Shown in pieces: positions 32,575 to 45,538 of a stretch of DNA of 64,000 nt. Numbering within the stretch: position 1 is the stretch's first letter; every line of letters begins with the position of its first letter. Under the pieces are notes generated by a model. That model had not been told where the DNA came from. It ran no database searches and was given only the letters and a program-made list of their open reading frames with translations. This DNA is from Methylotenera versatilis 7 (lineage in GTDB: Bacteria; Pseudomonadota; Gammaproteobacteria; Burkholderiales; Methylophilaceae): positions 806,001 to 870,000 of the forward strand of contig NZ_JUGF01000002.1 in NCBI RefSeq assembly GCF_000799165.1. The letters run 5' to 3'. The position numbers and the translations under genes are program-made.

Positions 32575-32651
32575 GGTGGCTGTAGCTCAGTTGGTAGAGT
32601 CCAGGATTGTGATTCCTGTTGTCGTGGGTTCGAGCCCCATCAGCCACCCCA
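32575..32651 (+). tRNA. tRNA-His (GTG), intact copy at left end of the element
   Basis: Extra 5' G (position -1) typical of tRNA-His, acceptor GTGGCTG/CAGCCAC, anticodon GTG, discriminator C and encoded CCA. Its 3' part from the anticodon loop on is the attachment site of the integrated element and is duplicated at 38212-38257, so integration restored a complete gene. Confidence 0.97.
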
Positions 32652-32652
32652 T
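32607..32652. repeat. attL, 46-bp direct repeat in tRNA-His
   Basis: Identical base for base to 38212-38257. It covers the tRNA-His anticodon loop to the CCA end plus one T. The flanking bases differ immediately on both sides. Confidence 0.95.
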
Positions 32653-32697
32653 AAAATTCAAACACCTACGAATATTTCTAGTCCCTATTTTTTGTAA

Positions 32698-32721
32698 TTT
32701 ATTAGACAATTGTCTAATAAA
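32698..32721. repeat. 24-bp perfect palindrome near attL
   Basis: TTTATTAGACAA (32698-32709) followed directly by its complement TTGTCTAATAAA (32710-32721). It lies 45 bases inside attL and 7 bases past the stop of the minus-strand gene 32729-33322, so it may be a terminator for that gene or a protein-binding site. The half-site TTGTCTAATA recurs at 38083-38092 near attR. Confidence 0.8.
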
Positions 32722-32728
32722 CTCTAGG

Positions 32729-33322
32729 TTATGGTGATATAGCGAACGTTATACCTTCATAATTACTAGCTATTTCTAACTCCTCTAAAGCTTTAACGCC
32801 CTCACTTGAGTTTACAAACTCATTCATCATTAATGTTCTTGATACGATCATTTGCATTACATCAATCAATACAGCCCTATTTGCTAATACATCATCGTAT
32901 TGTTTAACCAGCCAATTTTTGGCTTCCACTCGATGATCTTTGTGATCAAGATGCCATCTTTTACAAAAGTTGTGAATTATGAAGTTTCTATCATCATTAA
33001 TATCGTTAAAAAATTTAATTGTAGTATTTAAAGCTTCATTATCTGGAAGAGAATTGTAAGAAAAATAGTACTGATCGCTCTCTTCTTTATTAAATTTTGA
33101 ATCTATTTTTTTTAAGTAGGTTTCATCAGTTAATCTGCCTAATGATAATTCATCAATCTTTTTTTTTCGATTATGCAAATTCTCAAACGTCCCTTTACCC
33201 TCTTTGAACTGATGAATAAGTTTAAGGATGTGCTCAACGTTTTGAAAGATCAATACGTTGCGACCCAATAACATTTGTATATTTCGAATTTCTGCTAAGT
33301 CCTCCGCACTAATATCTTTCAC
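32729..33322 (-). CDS. Unknown protein with HEPN-like RX4H motif, coupled to integrase
   Basis: I do not recognise this 197-residue protein. It appears wholly alpha-helical and is rich in charged residues. The segment NDINDDRNFIIHNFCKRW holds R112-x4-H117, the spacing of the RX4-6H motif of HEPN domains, which in many toxin and defence proteins is an RNase active site. In several families the same fold is only a binding module, so RNase activity is inference. The GTG start overlaps the integrase stop by one base (TAGTG), so it is translated from the integrase message. Downstream it ends at the 24-bp palindrome. It could be a cargo defence or toxin gene, or a recombination accessory. Confidence 0.6.
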   Translation of the reverse strand: MKDISAEDLAEIRNIQMLLGRNVLIFQNVEHILKLIHQFKEGKGTFENLHNRKKKIDELSLGRLTDETYLKKIDSKFNKEESDQYYFSYNSLPDNEALNTTIKFFNDINDDRNFIIHNFCKRWHLDHKDHRVEAKNWLVKQYDDVLANRAVLIDVMQMIVSRTLMMNEFVNSSEGVKALEELEIASNYEGITFAISP

Positions 33323-34323
33323 TATTTAAGTCCTTTAACTCGGGTGTAATCTCGTTGTTTTATATAGTGCTCAGTCATGGCGGCACTAGAATGACCAGCT
33401 AAACTTTGTGCGTCTAAGCCAAGTCTTTTTGCATCGGTTAATGATTTTGCCCTAATGTCATGAAAAGTAAAACGATTACCGCCTGATTCGCGCCATTTAA
33501 TCTGAACTCTATTCCACATTGCTTTAAAGCCTGCATCTGAGTAAGGCTGACCTTGACGAGTGCAAAAGAGATATAAACCTCGTATAGGCCGTTTTAATGC
33601 CTTTGCTTTAGCCACAACCTCATTTAGGCCAGTTGTCCATTCATACAGTTGTTTTGTGCCTGTTTTGGATTGTTTAATCCATACTCCCTCATCAGTAATT
33701 TGATCTAGCCTAAGTTTAAGAATATCGCCTTTTCTCATTGCTGTTATGTAGGCAAAATCCATAACAATTGCTATGAGCTCACTGGCTAAAATTTTTACAC
33801 TTTCAAATTCTTGATCAGTTATATAACGATCACGACCTTTTTCAGGATGTTTAGCTACGCCTAGGCAAGGGTTTCTATCAATTTGACCCCAACGCATTGC
33901 ATAGCTGAATATATGTGAGAGTAAAGAAATTTCTCTATTTGCCCTAATTGGTGCTTTAATCCCGCGGAGATCTAAATATTTAGCTATGTGCATTGGCCTA
34001 ACTGCTAAAACTAATGTTTTATCAAATACTATCTTGAGATTTTTTGCTTCAGTTAAATTCCCTGAATAAGTAGATTTAGCTTTTTTAGGTGCTATTTCAA
34101 TCATATATTTATCAATTAATGCACCCATTGATCCAGCTAAAGGTTTTTCAGAACCAGTGATAACTGGCGATTCTCCCTCAATCTCTGCCCATTTAGAAAA
34201 TGCAATTGATTTATCATCTGATAACCTAATCCATTTATTTTCTCTTGAAACATAATAGTAAGCACCATGCTTTAGATACATCCTAGGTGGTAGATTGAAA
34301 TTATTTTTGCGACGTCTGCCCAT
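33322..34323 (-). CDS. int: Tyrosine recombinase (phage-type integrase)
   Basis: Site-specific recombinase that probably integrates the element at tRNA-His. The N terminus (GRRRKNNFNLPPRMYLKHGAYY style) is an arm-type DNA-binding segment, then a core-binding domain (about 65-160) and the catalytic domain. All active residues are visible: R197 (TAMRKGD), K220 (KQSKTG), H288 and R291 (FHDIRAKSLTDA), H311 (LAGHSS) and the nucleophile Y320 (EHYIKQ). Full length at 333 residues, no disruption. Co-directional with rep and DUF4224 upstream and with the HEPN-like gene downstream, so integration and replication genes share one transcript. Confidence 0.96.
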   Translation of the reverse strand: MGRRRKNNFNLPPRMYLKHGAYYYVSRENKWIRLSDDKSIAFSKWAEIEGESPVITGSEKPLAGSMGALIDKYMIEIAPKKAKSTYSGNLTEAKNLKIVFDKTLVLAVRPMHIAKYLDLRGIKAPIRANREISLLSHIFSYAMRWGQIDRNPCLGVAKHPEKGRDRYITDQEFESVKILASELIAIVMDFAYITAMRKGDILKLRLDQITDEGVWIKQSKTGTKQLYEWTTGLNEVVAKAKALKRPIRGLYLFCTRQGQPYSDAGFKAMWNRVQIKWRESGGNRFTFHDIRAKSLTDAKRLGLDAQSLAGHSSAAMTEHYIKQRDYTRVKGLK

Positions 34324-34333
34324 TTATATCTCG

Positions 34334-34558
34334 CTATCTAATTGCATCAAAATTTGGTTCGTTGGATACTTTGTCAGAAGGTGATGACCTGAGACGCTCC
34401 ACAAGTAATGAACGAAGTACTTTAGGTTTGCCTGATGCGCCAGTTTCAAATGGATATGAGTGATTTATTAACCACCTAATTTGAGCACTTGGGTTTTTAA
34501 GATCAGTGAGTTCTTTCAACTCATCCTGAGTTAAAAATAATAATGACAATATGCTCAT
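34334..34558 (-). CDS. DUF4224 protein, possible excisionase/regulator
   Basis: Small protein (74 residues) matching the DUF4224 pattern: FLTQDELKELTDLKNPSAQIRWLINHSYPFETGASGKPKVLR. Such genes are usually found beside phage-type integrases in proteobacteria, and the fold resembles a short winged helix or MerR/AlpA-like DNA binder. A role as excisionase or as a regulator of integration is therefore likely but not proven. Its ATG overlaps the stop of rep (ATGA), and int starts 10 bases after its stop. Confidence 0.85.
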   Translation of the reverse strand: MSILSLLFLTQDELKELTDLKNPSAQIRWLINHSYPFETGASGKPKVLRSLLVERLRSSPSDKVSNEPNFDAIR

Positions 34559-35706
34559 GGAAGCACTCGTCCATAACCAGCTAATTCTGGTAAATCTAAC
34601 CGTTTAGGGAATCCATCTCTTCTTATGAGTGCAATAACTTTTTCAGCACTTCCTTCTTTATTCATCATTACATCAATATGTTTACCGTACGATTGTTTAA
34701 GATAATGATTAAGGCTTTCATATCCTAACGAGGCAGTGGTTTTTAATGTGCGTATTCTTGTTTGCGTGTCAGAAATCCAACTGAGTGCATTGATGTAAGT
34801 TCCAGCTAAATACCGACCAGGTTGTAAAACTGCTTCCCATGGAATAATTCGATCACGATTTCCAAGTTGAACTTCCCATCTAACCCAAGGATGAAATGGA
34901 ATTTTTAACTGCATTCCTTTTTCATATATCCGTGCCATTTTGCCGTTTTCACTTGCACCAATATAAAGAGTCCTACCTCTACCATCTGGCTCAATCCAAT
35001 TGCCTGCCTGATCCATTAATGGTTTTCTACCACCGCTACTAAATAGCCCTTCTTGATACATTCTTAGAGCATTGTTTACGGAATGCTTACCTTCAAAATC
35101 ATCATATGCACCATCCCATCTTGTAATGTGAGCATCCAAATCATTTTGTAAGAAATCAACCAAACGTGGCCAATTACCAATGCGATGGCAACATTCACCC
35201 GATAGGCTTAAAAAGCCTGTACCTCGATTTCCACCATAAGCAAATATTCCTGCTGTTTGTCCAAGTTGAAAAGAGTGCTTATAGCCGTAAAGACCTTTAC
35301 CCCTGTCGATGGCTGGGGCGAATGCATAGCCAAGTAATGGAAGCAGGGTTGAAAAGAAATCTTGAATACTAATTTTTTCTAAATTAAAAGAGCAATTCAA
35401 AAAATCAACTATTGCGGATTCTGGATTGATATCTAAAACAGGTAGTGCAGTGGTAATTACTACAGCTTTACCACCTCGTGAAACAACTTCTAAACTTTCA
35501 CCATCATTTTGGTAGTTCTCATTATTTAAACTTTCCCCCCGTGTTACCAGACGGGGGACATCTGAAAACTCCAAGTTCGTAGATGTTTGAGGCGTTGCTG
35601 TTCCGCCTTCGTTCGGCAATTGGGGCGGTGCTGGCGCATCCGTCCCAATTACCGAGCCGAACGCGGTTTCATTAAAAGCAATAATATTTTGGTCTTTGTT
35701 TTTCAT
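34555..35706 (-). CDS. Replication initiation protein, Rep_trans/RstA-like family
   Basis: Probable rolling-circle initiator of the excised circle. The C-terminal 250 residues carry Rep_trans features shared with RstA of filamentous-phage satellites: GYKHSFQL, GTGFLSLSGECC, ITRWDGAYDDFEG, and GRTLYIGASENGKMARIYEKG followed by WVRWEVQL. The first 90 residues are a low-complexity, Gly/Thr/Asn-rich extension with no recognised domain. The catalytic tyrosine is not certain; Tyr residues in the YLKQSYGKH area and in RYLAGTY are candidates. Length 383 residues. It heads the minus-strand rep-DUF4224-int-HEPN transcript, 80 bases after an upstream terminator. Confidence 0.85.
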   Translation of the reverse strand: MKNKDQNIIAFNETAFGSVIGTDAPAPPQLPNEGGTATPQTSTNLEFSDVPRLVTRGESLNNENYQNDGESLEVVSRGGKAVVITTALPVLDINPESAIVDFLNCSFNLEKISIQDFFSTLLPLLGYAFAPAIDRGKGLYGYKHSFQLGQTAGIFAYGGNRGTGFLSLSGECCHRIGNWPRLVDFLQNDLDAHITRWDGAYDDFEGKHSVNNALRMYQEGLFSSGGRKPLMDQAGNWIEPDGRGRTLYIGASENGKMARIYEKGMQLKIPFHPWVRWEVQLGNRDRIIPWEAVLQPGRYLAGTYINALSWISDTQTRIRTLKTTASLGYESLNHYLKQSYGKHIDVMMNKEGSAEKVIALIRRDGFPKRLDLPELAGYGRVLP

Positions 35707-35740
35707 GTGAGGATGTTTAATGTTCCCTCACAGGATAGAC

Positions 35741-35768
35741 AATAAAAAAGGGAGCGTCAAGCTCCCTT
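35741..35768 (-). terminator. Intrinsic terminator of the 35786-36277 gene
   Basis: On the minus strand, AAGGGAGC-TTGAC-GCTCCCTT is followed by a T run (complement of the A run at 35741-35749). It separates the small upstream gene from rep. Confidence 0.85.
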
Positions 35769-35785
35769 AGTAATTTATTTTACTC

Positions 35786-36277
35786 TTATTCAATTTTCCT
35801 TCGATTTTCCTTCTCTTCTTTGGTCAATTCTGTCTCTCCAGATACTACTTTCCAGAAATTAGAGAATTTTTTAGCAATGCCCAAACCAACGGAGCGACCT
35901 GCACTTGGCCCTTCATCAGGAAAAATGTCACGAATTTTGATATCTAAAATTTCTTCATACTTACGAATCGTTTTTTTGCTATGAATCATATATAACACCT
36001 TCCAACCCATATGGTGCCCCATTCGCAACATCCCTAATGCAGATTCGAGCTCATCCAACATACCTACAAATTGTACGATAGCGCGTTTTTCTATCTGCTC
36101 TATTTGCTCCTTTTGTTCAGGTGAGAGGGTTGCAAAGCTTTGTGCATTAGGTGCCTTATTCGGAAGTACTCTATCGCTAATTCCAATTACAAATTTTTCG
36201 GAAGCGCTATGAGGTCTGGTAATTGGCTTTAAGACTGGATCTTCTGAGTCGGGTGGTGTGTTGGATTTGTTACTCAT
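35786..36277 (-). CDS. Unknown element-encoded protein
   Basis: Not recognised. It has 163 residues with a disordered Ser/Pro/Asn-rich N terminus (about 1-50). A helical, Glu/Gln-rich middle follows (about 52-95), including SPEQKEQIEQIEKRAIVQFVGMLDELESALGMLR, and the tail is basic and charged. No signal peptide or membrane segment is seen. It is the first minus-strand gene from the divergent control region, followed by its own terminator, so it is expressed separately from rep-int. Position suggests an early or regulatory protein of the element, which is inference only. Confidence 0.65.
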   Translation of the reverse strand: MSNKSNTPPDSEDPVLKPITRPHSASEKFVIGISDRVLPNKAPNAQSFATLSPEQKEQIEQIEKRAIVQFVGMLDELESALGMLRMGHHMGWKVLYMIHSKKTIRKYEEILDIKIRDIFPDEGPSAGRSVGLGIAKKFSNFWKVVSGETELTKEEKENRRKIE

Positions 36278-36297
36278 TTTTAACTCCGCTGACTAAA

Positions 36298-36313
36298 TAT
36301 AACTATAGTTATA
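36298..36313. promoter_or_regulatory. 16-bp perfect palindrome, candidate operator
   Basis: TATAACTATAGTTATA lies 20 bases before the start of the minus-strand gene 35786-36277, in the divergent region of the element. Its position and symmetry fit a repressor operator overlapping a promoter. Confidence 0.6.
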
Positions 36314-36346
36314 AGAGGGGATTTGAGCAACCCCTAACTTGCTAAA

Positions 36347-36412
36347 CTTTTTCTTATGAATTACTATGAAGTAAGAAAAAAGATCTCAATCTTTATCTTA
36401 GTTGAGATTTTT
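36347..36412. repeat. Two overlapping AT-rich hairpins in the element's divergent region
   Basis: TTTTTCTTA (36348-36356) pairs with TAAGAAAAA (36372-36380). ATCTCAA (36383-36389) pairs with TTGAGAT (36402-36408) and is followed by T4. The second looks like a plus-strand terminator or attenuator ahead of the small ORF and dGTPase. Confidence 0.45.
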
Positions 36413-36448
36413 ATATAAATGAATTTAAATATTTGAAAGAAAAACATA

Positions 36449-36625
36449 ATGAAAAAAGAAAGAATTAATTCTTTGAATGCGTTTGTTCTAGCAAATAAAA
36501 CTATAGAAAAGCAATCTCAGTCACTTGATCAAATATATGAAACTTTTCTTGTAAAGGCTTCTAGAGCTGGACAAGTAGTCCCTAACTCGAACACACGTAA
36601 TACATCCATAAAACAACCTGCTTAG
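36449..36625 (+). CDS. Small ORF (58 residues) preceding the dGTPase gene
   Basis: ATG 36449 to TAG 36625, encoding a short polar peptide that begins MKKERINSLNAF and ends TSIKQPA. A GAAAGAAA stretch eleven bases before the ATG may serve as a ribosome-binding site. It ends 10 bases before the dGTPase ATG, which has no Shine-Dalgarno of its own, so this may be a leader or coupling ORF for dGTPase translation. No domain recognised; it could also be non-coding. Confidence 0.45.
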   Translation: MKKERINSLNAFVLANKTIEKQSQSLDQIYETFLVKASRAGQVVPNSNTRNTSIKQPA

Positions 36626-36635
36626 CAATTATTAT

Positions 36636-38078
36636 ATGTTGTACAGTTTGGACGACTATAATCGCCAACAGAGCGTAGTCACAAAAAAAGAAGAGCTCGA
36701 ACTAAGGCCTCCTTTTTGGAGAGATTACGCTAGACTCATTCACTCCCCAGCATTTAGACGCCTGCAAGGTAAAACTCAACTTTTTGCAGGTGCTGAGTCA
36801 GATTTTTTTAGGAATCGACTTACTCACTCTTTAGAAGTAGCTCAAATAGCTAAATCAATAGCTATGAGAATAAACTCTACTAAATTTATTGGGAAGAGTA
36901 AGAAGGACTTAATTGACTTAGATTTGGTCGCCTTTGCAGGATTAACTCACGATTTAGGACATCCACCATTTGGACATAATGGTGAGTTGGCATTAGATGA
37001 GTGTATGAAAGATCATGGGGGATTTGAAGGAAATGCACAGACATTAAGAATTATTACAAGATTGGAAAAAAAAGGTGAATATGTAGAACCTTATTCAGGC
37101 CGGGGAAATAAAGATACTAGACTAGGACTAAATCTAACATATAGAACACTTGCATCAATACTCAAATATGATCAGAAAATTCCTATTAATAATAGTGATC
37201 GAAAAAAAGATGGTATCTGTAAAGGTTATTACAGCAGTGAAGAAGAAATAGTAAAGAAAATTAAAAAAAATGTAATTGGCAAGCAGAAATATAAGGGCGA
37301 TTTCAAAACCATTGAATGCCAAATAATGGACGTAGCAGATGATATCGCTTATTCAACTTATGATTTAGAGGATTCATTAAAAGCAGGATTTTTATCTCCC
37401 ATGGAGATACTTTCTGATACTTTAGATCAGCATTTTATGCTTCGAATAGCAGAAATTGTTACAAAAAGAACTACTGTGAAGTTTGATCTTGAAGATGTAG
37501 TCATAAGTTTGTTAGTGTTGTTTTTTGATACTGGTCTTTTTGAATCTGATTCTATATTGGATGAGATTAGGGGTGCAGCTAATGACAGAGACATGTATCT
37601 TCGAGTAGCTAGGAAAGGGGTTGAGGCATATGCCGCTTCCAATTTAGTAGCTTCGAACGGATACTACCGCAGTGAATTAACCTCAGGCCTTGTTGACAAA
37701 TTTATAAACGGTGTCGAAGTAATTTGGAATGAAGAAAATCCAGTATTTTCAGAAGTGAGATTTTCGGATGATATTTTTCCTTTAGTAGAGGTTTTGAAAA
37801 ATTATACGTATGTTAAATTTATTGAGTCAAATAGATTGAAAGTCGCCGAATATAGAGGATTTAGAATCGTAAAGGAAACTTTCGAAACATTGAATAGTAA
37901 TGCAGGTTCAAATTTGCTACCAAATGATTTTAAAGAGTGGTATGACAAGGCGCCAAATGAAACAGAAAAAAGAAGGGTAATTTGCGATTTTATTGCAGGA
38001 ATGACTGATAAATATTTGATCGAATTTTATGGTCGATTAAACTCGGAAAATCCGCAAAGTATTTTTAAACCTATTTAA
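36636..38078 (+). CDS. dgt: Deoxyguanosine triphosphate triphosphohydrolase (dGTPase)
   Basis: HD-superfamily enzyme that hydrolyses dGTP (or other dNTPs) to the nucleoside and triphosphate. Metal ligands are visible: H64 (RLTHSLEVAQIA), H105-D106 (LTHDLGHPPFGHNGE, with H109 and H114 for catalysis) and the Asp pair near 235 in VADDIAYSTYDLEDS. FRRLQGKTQLF near the N terminus is also typical. Full length at 480 residues. It is the only plus-strand operon of the element and its last gene before attR, the usual place for cargo. Some bacterial dGTPases stop phage growth by draining dNTPs, so a defence role is plausible; a housekeeping role is the alternative. Confidence 0.93.
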   Translation: MLYSLDDYNRQQSVVTKKEELELRPPFWRDYARLIHSPAFRRLQGKTQLFAGAESDFFRNRLTHSLEVAQIAKSIAMRINSTKFIGKSKKDLIDLDLVAFAGLTHDLGHPPFGHNGELALDECMKDHGGFEGNAQTLRIITRLEKKGEYVEPYSGRGNKDTRLGLNLTYRTLASILKYDQKIPINNSDRKKDGICKGYYSSEEEIVKKIKKNVIGKQKYKGDFKTIECQIMDVADDIAYSTYDLEDSLKAGFLSPMEILSDTLDQHFMLRIAEIVTKRTTVKFDLEDVVISLLVLFFDTGLFESDSILDEIRGAANDRDMYLRVARKGVEAYAASNLVASNGYYRSELTSGLVDKFINGVEVIWNEENPVFSEVRFSDDIFPLVEVLKNYTYVKFIESNRLKVAEYRGFRIVKETFETLNSNAGSNLLPNDFKEWYDKAPNETEKRRVICDFIAGMTDKYLIEFYGRLNSENPQSIFKPI

Positions 38079-38082
38079 TAAT

Positions 38083-38154
38083 TTGTCTAATATTTAGTCA
38101 TAAAAGTCAATTTGAAAGAAGAGCTGCTTATCTAAATTCCAATTTAAATTAGAC
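38083..38154. repeat. TTGTCTAATA half-sites inside the right end
   Basis: TTGTCTAATA at 38083-38092 repeats the half of the 24-bp palindrome near attL, and the inverse ATTAGAC occurs at 38148-38154. They lie about 60-130 bases inside attR. Matching sites at both ends suggest arm-type binding sites for Int or the DUF4224 protein. Confidence 0.5.
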
Positions 38155-38211
38155 GAAAAATTAGTAGAAAAATAATAAAATTCAATGGCTTAGTTTATTT
38201 TTAGTCTGGGG

Positions 38212-38257
38212 TTGTGATTCCTGTTGTCGTGGGTTCGAGCCCCATCAGCCACCCCAT
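38212..38257. repeat. attR, duplicated 3' half of tRNA-His
   Basis: Identical 46 bp to 32607-32652. It lacks the tRNA 5' half, so it is not a functional tRNA gene. The stretch from here to 38348 has no gene. Confidence 0.95.
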
Positions 38258-38348
38258 CCAACTTTTCTAAAAAATGACGATTATAAAAACTCAAACCAAA
38301 TAGCGTTCTATTTGCGTTTTTCAATACATGATGAACGGTAATTTCGCC

Positions 38349-39812
38349 TTATCGTTTTGTAAAAGCTTTTTTCAATCTTAGTATCCCAGTTTCCAGTTCG
38401 GTAATATCTAAACTACCAAAACCAAGTCTGATTGCCTGAATCTCCTCAGCAGGTTCTGAAAATGTGGCGCCCGGTAGAATTCGTACTTGTTCAAGTAAAG
38501 TGGCGTTTACCAAGTCATTAATATCAATGCCGGCATTTAAGCGTAACCAAATAGCCAGACCGCCATTGGGCGCATCAAAATTCACAAATTCCCTTAAATG
38601 CGTGTGAATCATCTCTATTAATAGGTTTCGGCGTTCGTTGTAAATTTTAAATGTTCTGCGGATATGCCGTTTAATTTCGCCAGAGGCCATCAGTTCGGCA
38701 ACGGCTAGTTCGGTGATGGAGTTGCCTTGCCGATCAATAATCATCACCTCATTTGCGCATTGGTTAATAAATTCTTTGGAGGCTACCAAGTAGCCCACAC
38801 GTAGGCCGGGAGCAAGCACTTTAGAAAGTGAGCCTACATAGATCACGTGATTATGATGATTGGTACTTGCAAGCGGGAATACAGGGTGGTGTGAAAAGTG
38901 GAACTCATGATCATAATCATCTTCAACGATGAAAAAACCATACTGCTCTGCTAGCATTAATAGCTTTAATCTGCGTTCAGCCGTCATCATCACAGTGGTT
39001 GGAAATTGATGGTGCGGTGTTACATAAATCGCACGGATGGCATGTTTTTTACACAGCTTTTCAAGCGCTATAACATCAATCCCCTGCTTGTCTAAACCTA
39101 CGGTAAGAATTTTTGCGCCGCACGTTCTAAATGCCTCGCGTGCAGGCGGATAGCTCAGATTCTCAACAACGACATAATCGTTTGGCTTAATCAACGCTCT
39201 GGCCGCCAAGAAGATGCCCATTTGACTACCGCGTGCGATGCAAATTTGATCAATATTGACGTTAAGTCCTCTTTCCAGATTAAGCATGGTGACGATCGCT
39301 TGTCGTAAAGCAAGCATGCCTTTAGGGTCGCCATAACCTAATTTATTATTTTTAGTGGGTGACAGTAATGCGTGGCGAAACGCTCGGGAAAGAATCTCAA
39401 AGGGAATGAGGCGTGTATCGGGAATGCCGTCATTAAAATCAATTAGATGCTGCGATGGTGGGTGATAGTCGGTAAGCGACAGAGTTGCGTTGCTGGTTGG
39501 TATGTGCGATTCGACTGTTAACTGATTATTTGTGGGTGCAATCGTAAAGCGGGGAAGGTTAGCAGAAACAAATGTACCTCGACGACTTTCTGTTGTCAGC
39601 CAGCCCTGAGCAATCAGTTCATCATAAGCCAGCACAATGGTTTTTCTATTGACCTTGAGTTGTTCTGCCAGTTCTCTGGTCCCCGGCATGGTGGTAGAGG
39701 GCGTTAGACGTCCCCTTTGAATCTCATCCATAATCTGTTGAGCAATCTGCAAATATACGGACACCCCTGAGGTTTGGGTGATGGTTAAATTTAAGTTCCA
39801 TGAACGTAGCAT
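38349..39812 (-). CDS. MocR/GabR-type regulator (GntR HTH + aminotransferase fold)
   Basis: Transcription factor with an N-terminal winged helix (about residues 10-80, VYLQIAQQIMDEIQRGRLTPSTTMPGTRELAEQLKVNRKTIVLAYDELIAQGWL) and a class I aminotransferase-like domain (about 120-485). The PLP lysine sits in GSLSKVLAPGLRVGYL and the partner Asp in FIVEDDYDHEF. These regulators sense PLP or amino-compound ligands (PdxR, GabR, TauR). Divergent from mxaR with a 186-252 base gap holding CTGGAC repeats. The target could be itself, mxaRSACKL or genes elsewhere; no PLP or taurine genes lie nearby. Confidence 0.92.
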   Translation of the reverse strand: MLRSWNLNLTITQTSGVSVYLQIAQQIMDEIQRGRLTPSTTMPGTRELAEQLKVNRKTIVLAYDELIAQGWLTTESRRGTFVSANLPRFTIAPTNNQLTVESHIPTSNATLSLTDYHPPSQHLIDFNDGIPDTRLIPFEILSRAFRHALLSPTKNNKLGYGDPKGMLALRQAIVTMLNLERGLNVNIDQICIARGSQMGIFLAARALIKPNDYVVVENLSYPPAREAFRTCGAKILTVGLDKQGIDVIALEKLCKKHAIRAIYVTPHHQFPTTVMMTAERRLKLLMLAEQYGFFIVEDDYDHEFHFSHHPVFPLASTNHHNHVIYVGSLSKVLAPGLRVGYLVASKEFINQCANEVMIIDRQGNSITELAVAELMASGEIKRHIRRTFKIYNERRNLLIEMIHTHLREFVNFDAPNGGLAIWLRLNAGIDINDLVNATLLEQVRILPGATFSEPAEEIQAIRLGFGSLDITELETGILRLKKAFTKR

Positions 39813-39840
39813 GATGTTCTCGAATGACTAAGATACAAAT

Positions 39841-39909
39841 CTGGACTATCTATATACAAGTATATTGTAAATTTTGCTGGACCACTAAAGTTATTCAATC
39901 TGGAGGATT
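39841..39909. promoter_or_regulatory. CTGGAC direct repeats and palindrome between mocR and mxaR
   Basis: CTGGACTATC (39841-39850) and CTGGACCACT (39877-39886) are direct repeats, with a partial third (CTGGAGGATT, 39900-39909). Between the first two lies ATATAC-AA-GTATAT (39852-39865). Similar CTGGAC repeats are what I recall for TauR-type MocR regulators. Further on, GTTACATTC is repeated at about 39918 and 39928. Confidence 0.5.
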
Positions 39910-40064
39910 GTAGGATAGTTACATTCTGTTACATTCCTATAACGGTTTGTTACAAGAAGTGAAATTATTTGTACAACAAGGCTTGCTAATTTTATTTAAT
40001 GAACTTGATTGAGTCCTCTGGTAGTGCAATTAACCAGAGCAATTTGAGTAACGGAAGGAGTTCT

Positions 40065-41108
40065 ATGTCACCACCATTAGATCATCAACTCACAGACTGG
40101 CGCAGTCACGCGTTGAAGTTAGAGAGTGAAGTCAAGAAAGTCATCGTCGGCCAGGACAAAGCCATTCGCCTCATGAACACTGCCATCTTTGCGCGTGGCC
40201 ACGTATTGCTGGAAGGTGGCGTCGGGGTTGGCAAGACCACCTTGCTGCAATCCATCGCCCGCTGTATCGGTGGTGCTTACGAACGTATCGAAGGCACGGT
40301 AGACCTGATGCCGAACGACCTGATCTATCACACCTACTTAGGTGAAGACGGCCGCCCCAAGATCGACGAAGGCCCGCTACTACGCGCCGGTGAGAATCTA
40401 TCCGTTTTCTTCTTTAATGAAATCAACCGTGCCAGACCACAAGTGCATGCCTTGATGCTCCGTGTCATGGCAGAACGCCATATCAGCGCCTTTAAAAGGG
40501 AGTATCGTTTACCGCACATGGTGGTATTTGCCGACCGTAACCAGGTCGAAAAAAACGAAACTTTTGAAATCCCTTCTGCTGCACGTGACCGCTTTATGAT
40601 GGAAATCCCCATTGATATCCCAGCCGATCGCGAACTCAGAAAATCCCTCATGTTCAACCTCAAGTTCCAGCATGCAGAAAACCTGACCAAACAAGTGGAA
40701 TCCAATGTCTTGCAGTTTGATCAACTGAATAACTTCTCTGACATTCTGCAAAGCCATATCAAAGCCAGCAGCACCATGGAAGACTACGCACTGGACTTAT
40801 GGGAATCCACTCAATCCCCAGAAAAATATGGCATCAAAATGGACAGCGTCGATGTGAACAGACTGATTCACACCGGTGCCAGCCCAAGAGGCATGGGCAT
40901 GCTGCTGAAAGCGGCCCGCGTCAATGCATGGCTGCAAAACCGCGATAGTCTGTACCCAGAAGACATTCACGCCGTGTTCCATGAGCTGATCGCACATCGC
41001 CTGGTATTTAACGCCATGTATGAAAACCGCAGAACACAACTGGCACGTGAGTTCACGACACAAATCCTGAATACTGTTGCAGTGCCAGCACTCGCTAAAG
41101 CCGCATGA
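40065..41108 (+). CDS. mxaR: MoxR-family AAA+ ATPase, methanol dehydrogenase assembly
   Basis: Chaperone-like ATPase of the mxa cluster, needed for maturation of PQQ methanol dehydrogenase. Walker A is GGVGVGKTT (51-59). Walker B is FFFNEINRARPQ (115-126), with Asn where most AAA+ proteins have Asp; I believe this is usual in the MxaR branch. The start is decided by the strong GGAAGGAG (40053-40060) before ATG 40065; the frame runs open to 39999, but that stretch is AT-rich and unlike the gene. Codon use here is clearly GC-richer than in mxaACKL. The stop overlaps mxaS (ATGA). Confidence 0.9.
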   Translation: MSPPLDHQLTDWRSHALKLESEVKKVIVGQDKAIRLMNTAIFARGHVLLEGGVGVGKTTLLQSIARCIGGAYERIEGTVDLMPNDLIYHTYLGEDGRPKIDEGPLLRAGENLSVFFFNEINRARPQVHALMLRVMAERHISAFKREYRLPHMVVFADRNQVEKNETFEIPSAARDRFMMEIPIDIPADRELRKSLMFNLKFQHAENLTKQVESNVLQFDQLNNFSDILQSHIKASSTMEDYALDLWESTQSPEKYGIKMDSVDVNRLIHTGASPRGMGMLLKAARVNAWLQNRDSLYPEDIHAVFHELIAHRLVFNAMYENRRTQLAREFTTQILNTVAVPALAKAA

Positions 41109-41962
41109 TTCCGGCCTACGCAAAACCATTTACCTACCAGATCCCCTGGAAGTCCAGCAGCGTGCATTCCGGCGACCACCGCGGATCGCAACGCGGCCTG
41201 GGGTTTGAGTACAGAGGCAACCTGTCGCTGGTAGACCATCCGGATGTGCGGCGCATCGATTTGCGCCAGACCTTGCGCGACCCATATGAACAAATACAGG
41301 TAAAGCTGTTCAACCAAGACAACACCACACCGATTTTTGCCGTATGCGATTGTTCCAGTTCCATGCAGTTCAAGGGCAGAACCAGAAAACTGGATATTGC
41401 CAAAGAAATCGCAGCCTCCATTGCCTACTCCGCCTTTGAGATGAGTGACCTATTCAGCTTTATTGCCTATAACGAACAAGTGATAGAAGAGCTCACCTTA
41501 CCGTTAAGTCATCACGTCCACCAATCCTTTGAGCTGATCGAGCAACTCACCAACTACCAAAAGTTACGCATCAGTGCTGAAGGCATCCTGGAAGTGCCGC
41601 AGTACCTGAGCCAGCACAAAGGTCTGGTGTTCTGGATATCGGATTTCCATATGCCGATACATCTGATCGAACAGGCCTTTAATGCTATGTCAGCGCATCA
41701 GATTGTGCCGATAGTCTTATGGGATGAACACGAATATAAAAAGCTGCCCAAATTTGGTTTCGGCAACATGATTGATCCGGAAACCGGCTTAAGCCGCAGC
41801 ATCTTCTTTAGGGAAGCGGTGCGTGTGCAGTTTGAACAGGCGTTTGTTGAGCGCAAGCAGGCATTGGAGGCTTTGTTTGCTAGGTTTGACTGTCAAGCCA
41901 TTTATATCCGCGATACCTATAACGCTGAAACCATATCGCGCTATTTTGAGCAGTTTAGCTAG
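41105..41962 (+). CDS. mxaS: DUF58/vWA-like protein MxaS
   Basis: Partner of the MoxR ATPase in methanol dehydrogenase maturation. A DUF58-type domain contains the integrin-like MIDAS sequence FAVCDCSSSMQF (D-x-S-x-S), followed by DIAKEIAASIAYSAFEMSDLFSFIAY. No signal peptide, 285 residues. ATG 41105 overlaps the mxaR stop by four bases. MoxR ATPases are usually encoded next to such a protein and vWA membrane proteins, as here. Like mxaR it is GC-richer than the genes that follow. Confidence 0.9.
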   Translation: MIPAYAKPFTYQIPWKSSSVHSGDHRGSQRGLGFEYRGNLSLVDHPDVRRIDLRQTLRDPYEQIQVKLFNQDNTTPIFAVCDCSSSMQFKGRTRKLDIAKEIAASIAYSAFEMSDLFSFIAYNEQVIEELTLPLSHHVHQSFELIEQLTNYQKLRISAEGILEVPQYLSQHKGLVFWISDFHMPIHLIEQAFNAMSAHQIVPIVLWDEHEYKKLPKFGFGNMIDPETGLSRSIFFREAVRVQFEQAFVERKQALEALFARFDCQAIYIRDTYNAETISRYFEQFS

Positions 41963-41990
41963 CAGGCATTTAAGTGAGTTTATTTAAAAA

Positions 41991-42911
41991 ATGATGAAAA
42001 AATTAATGATGCAATGGATTATGTCCTTTGGCTTGCTGGCTTTTGTGCTGACTGCAATCGCACAGGATACAGAAATAACCGCAGCCAAAATTATAAAAAT
42101 CAGCAACCCAACACACAGCAACAATATTCAAGTGGGCGCTATATTAACGCGCCAGATTGAGCTGGAAGTTGAATCGCCCTATCAGTTATCGACAGAAACC
42201 CTGCCGATGAAGGGCTCTAGTCAAAACGGTATTGAGTTGCGAGAGATTCAAGTAACGACATCCACGAGCAAGCAAGTGACTCGTTATATTGTTGATATGC
42301 GCTACCAGGTATTTGCTGCGCAATTTGTGCCAGCTGTGATGCAACTACCTGCAGAAAAACTGGCGCTTACAGGTGGACAGCAAGCCTTATCAGTCAATTT
42401 ACCTGCATGGAAATTTTGGTTTTCACCGCTTGTACCTAAAGGCATTACCAATGCAAAAGAGAATATGCAGCCTCAATTTAAACCTACGCTAATAGATGTG
42501 AGCGGCCATCATCAGCGTTTATGGATATCGTTGGCGATGTTGCTGGCAGGGTTGATTGGATTGGTCTATATCAATGCAGATAAACGCTGGTTACCATTTA
42601 TGAACGGCGCATTTGCAACAGCGCATCGCAAATTGAAAAAACTACCGCACAATCCGGCTGGCGAAAAACAAGCGCTGACTTATGTGCACCATGCTTTTAA
42701 CCAAGTCAATGGCGGTAATTTATTTGTAAACCAACTGGATGGTTTTTTAATAGCACACCCTGCGTTTGTCAAATTTAAAGCAGAAATAGAAGCTTTTTTT
42801 GAACGCTCAAACCAATCATTGTTTAGCGATGAAAATCAGAATAGTGGTAAATCAATGACGCATTTGATTGTGTTAAGTCGTCATCTGCGTGATTGTGAGC
42901 GAGGTGTTTAA
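41991..42911 (+). CDS. mxaA: MxaA, membrane protein of methanol dehydrogenase maturation
   Basis: In methylotrophs MxaA is required, with MxaK and MxaL, for calcium insertion into methanol dehydrogenase. The 306-residue protein has an N-terminal signal peptide (about 1-25, ending near AIAQ). A periplasmic beta-rich domain follows (about 26-170), with one membrane span (about 178-196, ISLAMLLAGLIGLVYI) and a cytoplasmic tail. The name rests on position between mxaS and mxaC and on this layout, since the family is weakly conserved. Alternative start ATG 41994. The stop shares a base with the mxaC start. Codon use returns here to the AT-richer average of the chromosome. Confidence 0.85.
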   Translation: MMKKLMMQWIMSFGLLAFVLTAIAQDTEITAAKIIKISNPTHSNNIQVGAILTRQIELEVESPYQLSTETLPMKGSSQNGIELREIQVTTSTSKQVTRYIVDMRYQVFAAQFVPAVMQLPAEKLALTGGQQALSVNLPAWKFWFSPLVPKGITNAKENMQPQFKPTLIDVSGHHQRLWISLAMLLAGLIGLVYINADKRWLPFMNGAFATAHRKLKKLPHNPAGEKQALTYVHHAFNQVNGGNLFVNQLDGFLIAHPAFVKFKAEIEAFFERSNQSLFSDENQNSGKSMTHLIVLSRHLRDCERGV

Positions 42912-43888
42912 TGGTTTTGCTACAACCTTGGTTTCTAATATTACTACCGTTAGCGCTGGTTCCATTCTGGCTTAAAAGCCATCAAGGACAACTCTATTCA
43001 TGGTTGGAAATCGCTCCGCAAGATCGATTTTCCGACATAGTTAACACGCTAATTAAGGCAATTATCAGCTTGTTGTTACTGAGTATTTTCTTGGCACTCG
43101 CATCACCGCGTAGTGCTGATAAACAGGTGCAAAAAGTGGGTAAAGGTGCGCAAACTGTATTGGTGATAGACCGCAGCGTGAGTATGGATAAACCCTTTGC
43201 GGGACAGTCTACAAGTGGCGTGGCGGCAGAAATTAAGTCGGCCGCAGCAAGACGACTTATTACGGAGTTTATTCAGTCGCGACCAGACGACATGATGGGC
43301 GTGGTGGCTTTTACAAACTCGGCGTTATACAGCACTAAAATTACCACCAATCGCAATGCGATTCTGGCGGGGATTAATGCCTCTACCGGTTCTGCGCTTA
43401 ATCAAACGAATATTGGTGCAGGCGTAACAGCGGGTATTGCCATGTTCGATCAGATTCAAAGTTCTGGTTCCAGAGCCATCATTTTATTGTCCGATGGTGC
43501 AGGCAAGTTGAGCCCACGTGTTAAGCAAAAAATTGCCGAGCAATTGACCGAAAAGAAATTGAATCTATATTGGATTGTGTTGCATGAGCCAGATGAAGTG
43601 AGCATTTTCACTAAACAGAAGTTTAGAGAAGGGGAAGTTCCGGGCATTGATTTAGACAAATATTTTAGCGGTCTCAAAATCAAATATAAAGCGTTTGAGG
43701 CGGAAGATCCGACCACATTGCAGGCTGCATTGCAATATATTGATGCTAAAGAGAAAAATTCTATTCAGTACGCGATTACCATTCCTGGACATGATTATTC
43801 TAAGGATTTAATCATGCTGGCATTCGTGCTGAGTCTATTCATATTAGTGATTAAGAATTTAAGGGTGCATTCATGGCAAGGCGCATAA
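42911..43888 (+). CDS. mxaC: MxaC, vWA-domain membrane protein
   Basis: Membrane vWA protein of the mxa accessory set. Hydrophobic spans occur at about 5-20, 47-66 and near the C terminus (about 303-320). The vWA domain (about 85-270) has a complete MIDAS start VLVIDRSVSMD. The C-terminal anchor and N-terminal spans match BatA-type proteins found with MoxR ATPases. It overlaps mxaA by one base and mxaK by 16, so translation is coupled. No metal-site residue appears lost. Confidence 0.88.
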   Translation: MVLLQPWFLILLPLALVPFWLKSHQGQLYSWLEIAPQDRFSDIVNTLIKAIISLLLLSIFLALASPRSADKQVQKVGKGAQTVLVIDRSVSMDKPFAGQSTSGVAAEIKSAAARRLITEFIQSRPDDMMGVVAFTNSALYSTKITTNRNAILAGINASTGSALNQTNIGAGVTAGIAMFDQIQSSGSRAIILLSDGAGKLSPRVKQKIAEQLTEKKLNLYWIVLHEPDEVSIFTKQKFREGEVPGIDLDKYFSGLKIKYKAFEAEDPTTLQAALQYIDAKEKNSIQYAITIPGHDYSKDLIMLAFVLSLFILVIKNLRVHSWQGA

Positions 43889-44409
43889 AAAGCAGTAATC
43901 TTTTGTTTGGTTTTTTATTAACAGTGGGAGCTTTTGGCACGGCTTATGAAGCTTACCAATGTGGAAAAATTGGTAAGGTGAATCAGGCAATTTTAGCCAA
44001 TCAGCAAATAGCCGATAACGATTTTCCATATCAGCAAAAATTTGCAGCGGCTTATGATCAGGGCGCTAAGCAAGGCTACAAGCATGCGGTGCAAACGTAT
44101 GGGCAATTGCTGGAAACCAACCCTGCAAAAAGTGAGCAGGCAAAGATTCAATTCAATGTGGCCAATAATTTGTTTATCTCGGGTTTGGTGCGACGGGTGA
44201 ATGATGATGGTTCGTTTCAAGATGAAGCGCGATATGCTTACTCGCAAGCCAAAATGGCCTATGAGCAATCATTGCGTCTTGAGCCTACATTGGGCGCAGC
44301 TAAATTTAATTTAAGCCTGTTGCATTCAATGCTGGCACAAAATACAAAAATCCCGGCAAAAGAACAATCGACGATGGAATTAAGCAACTTGCCAATAGGA
44401 TTGCCATGA
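43873..44409 (+). CDS. mxaK: MxaK, membrane-anchored maturation protein
   Basis: One of the proteins linked to calcium insertion into methanol dehydrogenase. It has a short basic N terminus and one membrane anchor (about 9-26). The periplasmic part resembles TPR-like helices, with YKHAVQTYGQLLETNPAKSEQAKIQFNVANNLFISG and YSQAKMAYEQSLRLEPTLGAAKFNLSLL. 178 residues. Its overlap of 16 bases with mxaC and 4 with mxaL supports one polycistronic unit. Named by position and layout. Confidence 0.86.
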   Translation: MARRIKSSNLLFGFLLTVGAFGTAYEAYQCGKIGKVNQAILANQQIADNDFPYQQKFAAAYDQGAKQGYKHAVQTYGQLLETNPAKSEQAKIQFNVANNLFISGLVRRVNDDGSFQDEARYAYSQAKMAYEQSLRLEPTLGAAKFNLSLLHSMLAQNTKIPAKEQSTMELSNLPIGLP

Positions 44410-45353
44410 ATAAGCTGTTGATGATATTGAAGGAAAATTATGAAACGGCTTTTTATGTTATCGCGGCAATTCTATTGCTGCTTGCTTTAATTAAGCCAGA
44501 AATACAGCTGAAGCAAGAAGTGCATAACTATTTGCTGATAGCTGATGTTTCGCAAAGTATGAATGCGGAAGATGTTCAGTTGAACAATAAAAATGTCAGT
44601 CGCATGGCTTACACGCGTCATCTCATGACAAAAATTGTGGAAACTTCACCCTGTGGTACATATATCAGCGTGGGCGTTTTTGCCTCTGACAATGTCGCAT
44701 TGCTCATCACGCCTTTAGAAGTGTGTGCAAACTATGATGTGATCAACGATACGATAGCGCATATCGAATGGCGTATGGCCTGGAAAGGCGATAGCCGGTT
44801 GACTGTTGGCGTGCGTGCTGCTGCGCATTTGTTTGACTCACTTAACGTGCCAGCAAAGTTATTACTTTTTACCGATGGTGACGAAGCGCCAAAGTTAAAC
44901 GTCACCATTCGGCAAAATTTAGATGGCGTGCAGATTGGTAAACATACCGTATTTGTTGGTGTTGGTGGTGATAAACATGTGGCTGTGCCGCGCTTTAATT
45001 CAGCGAATAAATGGATAGGGTTCTGGCCTTCTGGGGAAAATAATACCGCTGGCGGCGGTGTTAACTACACTGATACGAGTTTAGATGATCCGGATCCTGT
45101 AGTCGCTTCTGCGGAATATGATCAATATTTATCCAAGCTTGAGGCTGAGCATCTTGAAGAGTTGGCTACAGAAATCAAGGCGCAATACGTGGAGGGAAAA
45201 AATACGCCAGAATTTTATCAATTCGTACAACAACAAAAACCTGCGGCGAGTTTTGTAACTGCCTATTCAATTCGTTGGATATATTTGTTACTGGTGGCAT
45301 TATTGATTGTCGCTACTTTCATTCCGAATGCATTAGCACGTCGACAGACTTAA
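44406..45353 (+). CDS. mxaL: MxaL, vWA-domain membrane protein
   Basis: Second vWA protein of the cluster, also tied to calcium insertion. Anchors are at about 15-28 and near the C terminus (about 292-310). The MIDAS start is LLIADVSQSMNAED (D-x-S-x-S), with LLLFTDGDEAPK later in the domain. 315 residues. Last gene of mxaRSACKL here; the usual next genes mxaD, mxaE and mxaH do not follow. Two inverted repeats occupy the gap after it. Confidence 0.88.
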   Translation: MNKLLMILKENYETAFYVIAAILLLLALIKPEIQLKQEVHNYLLIADVSQSMNAEDVQLNNKNVSRMAYTRHLMTKIVETSPCGTYISVGVFASDNVALLITPLEVCANYDVINDTIAHIEWRMAWKGDSRLTVGVRAAAHLFDSLNVPAKLLLFTDGDEAPKLNVTIRQNLDGVQIGKHTVFVGVGGDKHVAVPRFNSANKWIGFWPSGENNTAGGGVNYTDTSLDDPDPVVASAEYDQYLSKLEAEHLEELATEIKAQYVEGKNTPEFYQFVQQQKPAASFVTAYSIRWIYLLLVALLIVATFIPNALARRQT

Positions 45354-45387
45354 ATTAAGCCGATATTCTGCGCGTTAATAGTCTGTT

Positions 45388-45446
45388 CATACGCCAGCGT
45401 ATGTCCTAGGTGCTCAATTAAGTGCATTTGTTGCACTTAATTGAGC
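45388..45446 (+). terminator. Two inverted repeats after mxaL
   Basis: CATACGC-CA-GCGTATG (45388-45403) is followed by a perfect 15-bp stem GCTCAATTAAGTGCA / TGCACTTAATTGAGC around TTTGT (45412-45446). No T tract follows. It probably ends or stabilises the mxa transcript. Confidence 0.65.
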
Positions 45447-45538
45447 TTAAGGCACACTGACATTGATAACCAGCTTTTTAACGGTTATAGTATCCTTAAT
45501 AAAAAATCACTAAACGTTTCAATTATAAGGATAAATTA

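Follow-up and report, generated by a model that had tools for sequence, protein, structure and literature searches.

The locus considered here raises the question of what kind of mobile unit has settled in the tRNA-His gene of Methylotenera versatilis 7 and by which vehicle it could travel. The window, i.e., the whole stretch of 64,000 nucleotides that was analysed (contig NZ_JUGF01000002.1, positions 806,001 to 870,000, from a host genome of 2.50 Mb), contains 5.6 kb enclosed by two direct repeats, which an earlier sequence-only reading had described as a satellite-like element with a dGTPase as cargo. We consider it probable, though by no means assured, that this element belongs to a family of small integrative elements that are most likely satellites of filamentous phages (inoviruses). 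What is unusual about it is a protein termed ORF163 and the link to filamentous phages rather than the dGTPase; ORF163, like ORF197 and ORF58, was absent from the gene list of the sequence-only reading.

With regard to its borders, the element is well delimited. The two exact 46-bp repeat copies, which had been predicted to bound about 5.6 kb, lie within a 55-nt match with three mismatches, and the left copy constitutes the 3' end of tRNA-His (32576-32651). A 39-nt core of the repeat occurs twice in the window and in none of 100 shuffles, and this control together with the exact 46-bp match rules out chance as the origin of the repeat. A third copy of the attachment (att) site was searched for in the window and is not present. 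From the tRNA inwards, ORF197, a tyrosine integrase, a DUF4224/excisionase-like protein (Xis), Rep_trans and ORF163 follow each other on the minus strand, and ORF58 and the dGTPase precede attR on the plus strand (Table 1). The integrase, DUF4224, RstA-like Rep and full-length dGTPase that had been named from the letters were each matched in domain, PADLOC or PHROG searches. In agreement with the earlier statement that virion and transfer genes are lacking, none of the seven open reading frames (ORFs) of the element matches such families at E<=0.001, two weak virion matches lying at 0.1 and 0.17; at the same threshold the seven ORFs include no coat or assembly genes of their own. A perfect palindrome, TTTATTAGACAATTGTCTAATAAA, adjoins attL at window positions 32696-32720 and is a possible integrase arm or Xis site.

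An empty site is found in the best-matching genome (G007, 97% over 360 nt), which has a single intact tRNA-His and no element. As G007 is also without a further 7.2 kb to the right of the element, the evidence for the empty site comes from the intact tRNA and the more distant synteny and not from an identical right flank. The missing 7.2 kb (window 38258-45460) comprise a regulator gene of the MocR type and an operon of the MoxR/VWA type, names that were read from the ORFs. Three other relatives (G008, which is of the same genus, G066 and G011) harbor the same core at the same tRNA-His within 45-46-nt repeats, with identities to the core in the window of 84-85% for the integrase (three relatives with a full-length copy), 61-66% for Xis, 49-54% for Rep and 54-77% for ORF163. 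Their cargo differs and consists of DUF3800 with a 269-aa protein; a ClpP-like SDH protease plus HicA with a DUF1902 partner; and Rap1a with three proteins that have no family. In G010 the same core is split across two contigs and accompanied by a Panacea-domain protein, such that the comparison of tRNA-His insertions proposed in the sequence-only reading yielded one core with different cargo. Two further loci deserve mention. One of them (L183, G009:C33, 3627-15598) contains five copies of the tRNA-His 3' end within 12 kb, which probably reflect insertions stacked at one site. In the other (L184, G155:C1), tRNA-His repeats enclose 8 kb that encode Xis and a related integrase (69% identity at the DNA level) and give no match to ORF163.

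ORF163 turned out to be the signature of a larger family. A scan of 57 members yielded no more than scattered weak matches in Pfam (best E 0.0056) and none at 0.01 in PHROGs, while the profile had no match in the PDB at E 10. ORF163 is absent from 50,697 phage records, in a search with a single sequence, and from plasmid records, was matched in two viral contigs and occurs in 75 loci among 84,980 species genomes. Judged by record titles, these loci stem mainly from Betaproteobacteria and some Gammaproteobacteria, with single odd titles (Geobacteraceae, Actinomycetes); among 399 sampled genomes of the order, 13 are carriers. The counts of locus architecture omit ten of the 75 loci, in which no ORF163 ORF was obtained. 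A rolling-circle Rep is the next gene in 47 of the 57 loci with more than 3 kb 3' of ORF163, an integrase is located within 4 kb in 48, and both are present in 44, in the same order and on the same strand. The usual arrangement is ORF163, rolling-circle Rep, sometimes Xis (DUF4224-type in 11 of the 57 loci) and an integrase facing the tRNA, with cargo at the ends. The Rep proteins are of at least two kinds, Rep_trans and REP_ORF2-G2P (L120, 2.5e-33). Direct repeats of at least 26 nt surround the element in 26 of 41 loci for which both flanks are available vs. none in the inverted control. Across the family the att repeats are exact, 27-72 nt long and located at tRNA or tmRNA genes, the insertion sites being tRNA-His, Val, Ser, Arg, Phe, Met, Thr, Gly, Lys and Pro as well as tmRNA. 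The 35 delimited elements range in size from 3.4 to 7.8 kb (median 5.19 kb), with a manually placed boundary in L079; at L103, where no tRNA was called, the repeat corresponds to the tRNA-His tail. The family marked by ORF163 is widespread and apparently undescribed, and its mobile elements are small (mostly 4-7 kb). Two members, L210 and L211, reside in one single-contig chromosome (G247), with ORF163 sequences that are identical in the tree and different neighboring genes. Loci L212, L221 and L223, and L220, which is cut by a contig end, combine ORF163 and an integrase with no recognized Rep, and a 570-aa gene lies upstream in the three that are uncut.

A first connection to filamentous phages is provided by the replication gene. 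Rep of the element in the window has matches in 77 phage records and is, by homology, a predicted rolling-circle initiator of the filamentous-phage type. Within the bacterial family of the window, each of the seven complete or fragmentary elements has a perfect hairpin with the loop CTGGTAAY in the 5' part of rep. A weight matrix built from 30 of the sites recovered this motif from 50 of the 55 loci with Rep_trans, while the 717,930 remaining positions of these loci gave no match. In this set at least one contig is represented twice (L093, L213), and six duplicates (L074-L078, L080) had been removed beforehand. The motif is translated in two ways, PRLVIRG-like in 35 loci and PPSGNTGG-like in 15; the two reading frames indicate that it is conserved as DNA and not merely as protein, so that conservation of the protein cannot by itself account for the hairpin. 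Origins within rep are known from pT181-type plasmids, and the motif appears origin-like, with a putative nick site. The loci that bear it include four inoviruses with Zot (L062, L064, L065 and L067), Zot here denoting the phage assembly ATPase family that is named for its Vibrio member.

ORF163 itself provides the second and more telling connection. In four inoviruses, namely Nitrosomonas oligotropha L127, L131 and L136 and the viral contig L192, it follows Zot. The gene order in L136 according to Pfam is RstB, G2P Rep, Coat B, proteins of 98, 478 and 96 aa, Zot and ORF163. Pfam likewise places Zot before ORF163 in L131, with a 59-aa ORF in between, and in L127; in L192 this order was typed with our own profiles built from the Pfam-typed inoviruses, of which the Zot profile is loose and also labelled some small ORFs. 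Ten Nitrosomonas-type elements (seven records titled Nitrosomonas, one titled Proteobacteria bacterium and the two in G247) share, irrespective of their cargo, a double hairpin 5' of ORF163. A DNA profile derived from nine of these elements, and from no inovirus, matched after the elements exactly these four inoviruses (E 3.7e-4 to 0.011), in which the double hairpin immediately follows the 3' end of ORF163 on the same strand; it also matched a second copy in the N. oligotropha inovirus L131 (8758-8828), beyond a 310-aa gene. A covariance model applied to 99 sources recovered this second copy as well and added L146, again directly 3' of ORF163 (5.5e-5). The model also gave an unexplained second match in L114 (1276-1354, 0.0019), outside the element of that locus. 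The four ORF163 loci from the genus of G247 that were mentioned above (L212, L220, L221, L223) have no double hairpin.

In the alignment of the double hairpin, 21 pairs hold in every sequence and seven are changed on both sides. Pairing reaches 100% vs. 85.7% in shuffles, cells changed on both sides number 28 vs. 8.7, and the covariation score is 0.372 vs. 0.122, values that were each attained in 0 of 500 shuffles; since the four inoviral hairpins scarcely differ from one another, their changes amount to one evolutionary split. A hairpin related to the first of the two lies 3' of morphogenesis genes on the same strand in L268, L065 and L064, which lack ORF163 (E 0.012-0.074), and two of these three belong to the bacterial family of the window. 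This position resembles that of the packaging signal of Ff phages. A loop rule, formulated only after the hairpin matches in the further sources had been inspected, gave 19 matches, of which two (L073, L217) lie elsewhere, vs. 0.2 in mononucleotide shuffles. In the tree, the inoviral ORF163 proteins together with that of L146 form one clade (100/100) inside the family, on a long branch, and Nitrosomonas-type elements from two ORF163 lineages bear the same double hairpin. Replication relies on a G2P Rep in L136 and on Rep_trans in the Nitrosomonas elements, so what is common to both is ORF163 and the hairpin, in line with what would be expected of a packaging module. The Nitrosomonas case appears the most telling, and a packaging or assembly module would be the simplest explanation for the shared ORF163 and hairpin. 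The main alternative is a regulatory module that was acquired by one inovirus lineage.

Sequence features upstream of ORF163 bear on this alternative. In 25 distinct loci (30 listed, five of them duplicates, from a set of up to 85 ORF163 ORFs), ORF163 is preceded by an interrupted palindrome that overlaps a -35-like TTG and is followed, about 17 nt further on, by a -10-like TAT (by eye). This palindrome is the likely promoter/operator of the ORF163 operon. No such palindrome was detected in inovirus loci, the best scores being 14.1 among the four with ORF163 (L131) and 16.1 overall (L067) vs. at least 19.1 for the sites. The KRTIRKYEEILG stretch of ORF163 looks like part of a putative helix-turn-helix. 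In the gap between ORF163 and rep, the terminator-like hairpin is partly conserved across the tRNA-His group.

From these comparisons, in which the integration unit with its att sites, the empty site, the order of the core genes, the exchange of cargo and the sharing of ORF163 and of hairpins can be read directly from the sequences, we infer the following cycle. Integrase and Xis would excise the element at tRNA-His, and Rep_trans would nick the hairpin in its own gene and produce single-stranded circles by rolling-circle replication. ORF163, with the hairpin signal in those members that have one, would hand the single strand over to the machinery by which an inovirus, be it resident or co-infecting, is coated and extruded, and the element DNA would integrate in a new host. 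The interchangeable cargo at the ends, here the dGTPase and ORF197, would benefit that host.

Several observations weigh against an inovirus as the vehicle. Zot was not found in the genome that contains the window, so there is no resident helper, and Zot is present in three of the 13 ORF163 carriers (all weak or partial matches) vs. 45 of the 399 genomes overall, i.e., without clear enrichment. As stated above, ORF163 was found in no phage record and in only two viral contigs, and it occurs in none of the 25 other Zot loci inspected; in 28 further sources, of which 25 are Zot-labelled and without ORF163, only three weak hairpin matches were obtained. The double hairpin is not present in the element in the window or in the tRNA-His group (covariance model, up to E 10) and, below E 0.01, is absent from the family loci searched except for the ten elements, the four inoviruses, L146 and L114. 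The hairpin had been predicted beforehand for L254 (G166) and L255 (G209), two inovirus loci that lack ORF163 and belong to the genus of the carrier G247, and this prediction came out negative; in that genus the double hairpin therefore accompanies ORF163 as a module and not inoviruses in general. The number of pairs changed on both sides, seven, is not unusual (shuffled mean 5.8; reached in 127 of 500 shuffles). As to the motif in rep, the four inoviruses with Zot keep the 3' arm, yet pair at only 5-6 of 9 positions in the register used, and L068, which also bears Zot, falls under the cut-off of the matrix. Lastly, the inoviral ORF163 is a single long-branch lineage, so inoviruses could have gained it from the elements.

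Such a gain is part of the notion that the elements are autonomous, integrate and replicate by rolling circle with no need of a phage, and possess ORF163 and the hairpin as a regulatory or replication module of their own that passed to one Nitrosomonas inovirus lineage. The nesting of this lineage among the elements, the joint absence of ORF163 and hairpin from same-genus inoviruses, the conserved promoter/operator and helix-turn-helix-like KRTIRKYEEILG stretch, which fit a DNA-binding regulator, and the genome without Zot all agree with it. We nevertheless regard it as rather improbable in view of the weak related hairpins 3' of morphogenesis genes in three inoviruses without ORF163 and of a family that is spread across many hosts with no transfer gene apparent. 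Alternatively, the elements might be remnants of integrated inoviruses that have lost their virion genes and now persist as static defence islands, as the common Rep, ORF163 and signals and the occurrence of inoviruses with integrases in the bacterial family of the window (L062, L064, L065) could suggest. This appears improbable, because the intact core and the exact 27-72-nt att repeats at tRNA/tmRNA genes speak for mobility as a unit, the same core order is combined with different cargo in many hosts, and G247 has two copies with the same ORF163 and different neighbors in one chromosome. A similarly small chance is given to a tailed phage as helper. A satellite of the minimalist PICMI type would be excised, form rolling-circle concatemers and be packaged headful by its helper with no packaging genes of its own; a size of about 5-6 kb and an integrase with a small core and defence cargo fit the type as portrayed in the accessible part of PMC10803314, and rolling-circle replication could indeed yield concatemers. 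On the other hand, the seven ORFs include no AlpA or primase domain, the site is tRNA-His and not fis, and the Rep family, the motif in rep and, in Nitrosomonas, ORF163 with the double hairpin are common to filamentous phages. An integrative mobilizable element, with Rep_trans as a MOBT-like relaxase and a conjugative plasmid or integrative and conjugative element (ICE) as the carrier, is the least probable of these explanations and would surprise us. The Rep_trans domain is present, and MOBT relaxases are related to Rep_trans proteins according to the accessible parts of the respective sources (PMC11389934; PMC7563843; PMC6499999), but this Rep resembles phage initiators (phrog_453 and the phage records noted above), has the same in-gene motif as inoviruses with Zot and is replaced in L120 by an initiator of the REP_ORF2-G2P type.

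For satellites of inoviruses, as we prefer to interpret the elements, the cargo would be what they offer to their hosts. In the 35 delimited elements, this cargo, swappable at the element ends, is rich in predicted defence and toxin-antitoxin genes. Among the 25 of 42 families shown, Pfam assigned the 86 cargo ORFs to OLD-type AAA (3), HNH (3), SDH protease (2) and HicB (2), and once each to ParD, RelA/SpoT, cytidine/dCMP-type deaminase, SIR2, trypsin-like, DUF4276, DUF3800, Rap1a and dGTPase. At 1e-5, the 86 cargo proteins matched 183 families of PADLOC models vs. 51 for 86 random flank proteins; these figures count model families and not proteins, one OLD-type protein matching many models, and the control flanks themselves include defence genes (AbiE, reverse transcriptase). 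As ORFs of the fetched loci were called by a longest-ORF script, some spurious ORFs are contained in cargo lists and controls alike.

The dGTPase has the residues of the HD type (H64, H105-D106, D235-D236) and scores 351.8 bits against TIGR01353 (dGTP triphosphohydrolase; cut-off 152.35) and 378.1 bits against the NCBIfam antiphage_dGTPase model NF041026, the latter below the cut-off of 400. It is not the only copy, a possibility on which the sequence-only reading had made its proposal depend, since the genome encodes a second dGTPase of 377 aa (C1:504709-505734), which resembles the one match that most relatives have. A dGTPase match at 1e-20 is present in 119 of 149 relatives, yet only G105 encodes a protein related to the cargo enzyme over nearly its full length (55%). 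Three plasmid homologues with 48-50% identity are annotated as anti-phage dGTPase (one) and dNTP or dGTP triphosphohydrolase (two). The cargo enzyme is predicted to reduce the level of dGTP while other phages infect the cell. That it is not defensive and instead tunes nucleotide pools for the element or restrains co-resident elements appears unlikely, if worth keeping in mind: the score below the antiphage_dGTPase cut-off would fit, whereas the many defence and toxin-antitoxin families in the cargo slots of relatives and the anti-phage annotation of one of the three plasmid homologues argue for defence. The idea of a replicating, integrating, satellite-like element with a defence-type dGTPase thus gained support from the relatives and from the defence-rich cargo; the dGTPase on which it focused is one among many interchangeable cargoes. 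ORF197 has no family in the domain libraries, no relative in the PDB and one distant relative in 300 genomes. It contains an R-x4-H stretch (DDRNFIIH), which we take to be of the kind found in HEPN RNases; if this HEPN-like stretch is real, the element would carry a second defence or toxin cargo.

Table 1. Features of the element at tRNA-His of M. versatilis 7 (positions refer to the window).
Feature	Position	Strand	Remarks
attL	32607..32652	+	46-bp repeat, 3' end of tRNA-His
ORF197	32729..33322	-	cargo adjoining the tRNA; no family
Tyrosine integrase	33322..34323	-	faces tRNA-His; PF00589 2.1e-15
DUF4224/excisionase-like (Xis)	34334..34558	-	DUF4224 2.7e-13; PHROG excisionase
Rep_trans (RstA-type) rolling-circle initiator	34555..35706	-	Rep_trans 2.9e-29; phrog_453 replication initiation 3.7e-65
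Nick-like hairpin motif within rep	35534..35559	-	common to inovirus reps
ORF163-Rep gap with terminator-like hairpin	35707..35785	-	GGGAGC-TTGAC-GCTCCC, then T run
ORF163, family signature protein	35786..36277	-	also 3' of Zot in Nitrosomonas inoviruses
Interrupted palindrome AGGGGTTGCTCAAATCCCCT, likely promoter/operator	36316..36335	-	overlaps -35-like TTG; common to other members
ORF58	36449..36625	+	small, no family, may be chance; 10 bp upstream of dGTPase
dGTPase cargo, 480 aa	36636..38078	+	PADLOC dGTPase 1e-122
attR	38212..38257	+	second perfect copy of the 46-bp repeat

Among described systems, RS1 is small, has an RstA-type Rep and no coat genes, and integrates by means of XerCD at dif. 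The present element is like RS1 in its RstA-type Rep, lack of coat genes, small size and integration, and differs in having its own tyrosine integrase at tRNA genes, ORF163, swappable defence cargo and a distribution over many Betaproteobacteria. RS1 is a satellite of the filamentous phage CTXphi, and pDolos (Schmid et al. 2024) is a plasmid satellite of an inovirus, as summarized in the accessible parts of PMC11389934 for both and of PMC13230959 for the latter. By this description pDolos is a hitchhiker of an inovirus, as we propose for the present element; unlike that autonomous plasmid, the element described here integrates with int/xis and att sites. With PICMI, as far as the accessible part of PMC10803314 describes it, the element shares a size of about 6 kb, a minimal core, a slot for defence cargo and integration, and it differs from the AlpA, primase, fis site and tailed virulent helper given there. 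Islands at tmRNA that are moved by a jumbo phage (PMC12595487) likewise possess a tyrosine integrase, direct repeats, defence cargo and no transfer genes, and the abstract of that paper names no rolling-circle Rep or inovirus feature. The cargo enzyme resembles anti-phage dGTPases and CloA of Clover as presented in the accessible part of PMC12265719 in being an HD-domain dGTPase close to NF041026; it differs in scoring below the cut-off of that model, and no nucleotidyltransferase partner was recognized in the neighboring ORFs. In the open-access literature, with most subscription papers and bioRxiv outside the scope, no description of a tRNA-integrating inovirus satellite or of an element like this one was found, and the term "satellite" was not found in the accessible text of PMC6813254 on cryptic inoviruses. 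Inovirus satellites as such are already known (RS1, pDolos), and it is the tRNA-integrating, defence-carrying family for which the literature searched gave no counterpart.

Known families of phage satellites ride mostly on tailed phages, and few inovirus satellites are known. It is conceivable, and in our estimation only a little short of an even chance, that a large undescribed family of integrative satellites distributes anti-phage genes among Beta- and Gammaproteobacteria and leaves the cells alive, with ORF163 and the hairpin hijacking the extrusion of inoviruses and the cargo protecting both host and helper from lytic phages. If this is true, non-lytic filamentous particles would be a common route for defence genes, ORF163 and the hairpin would offer a testable handle on how filamentous phages choose their DNA, and ORF163 would serve as a simple marker for such elements and for new small defence systems in their cargo slots.

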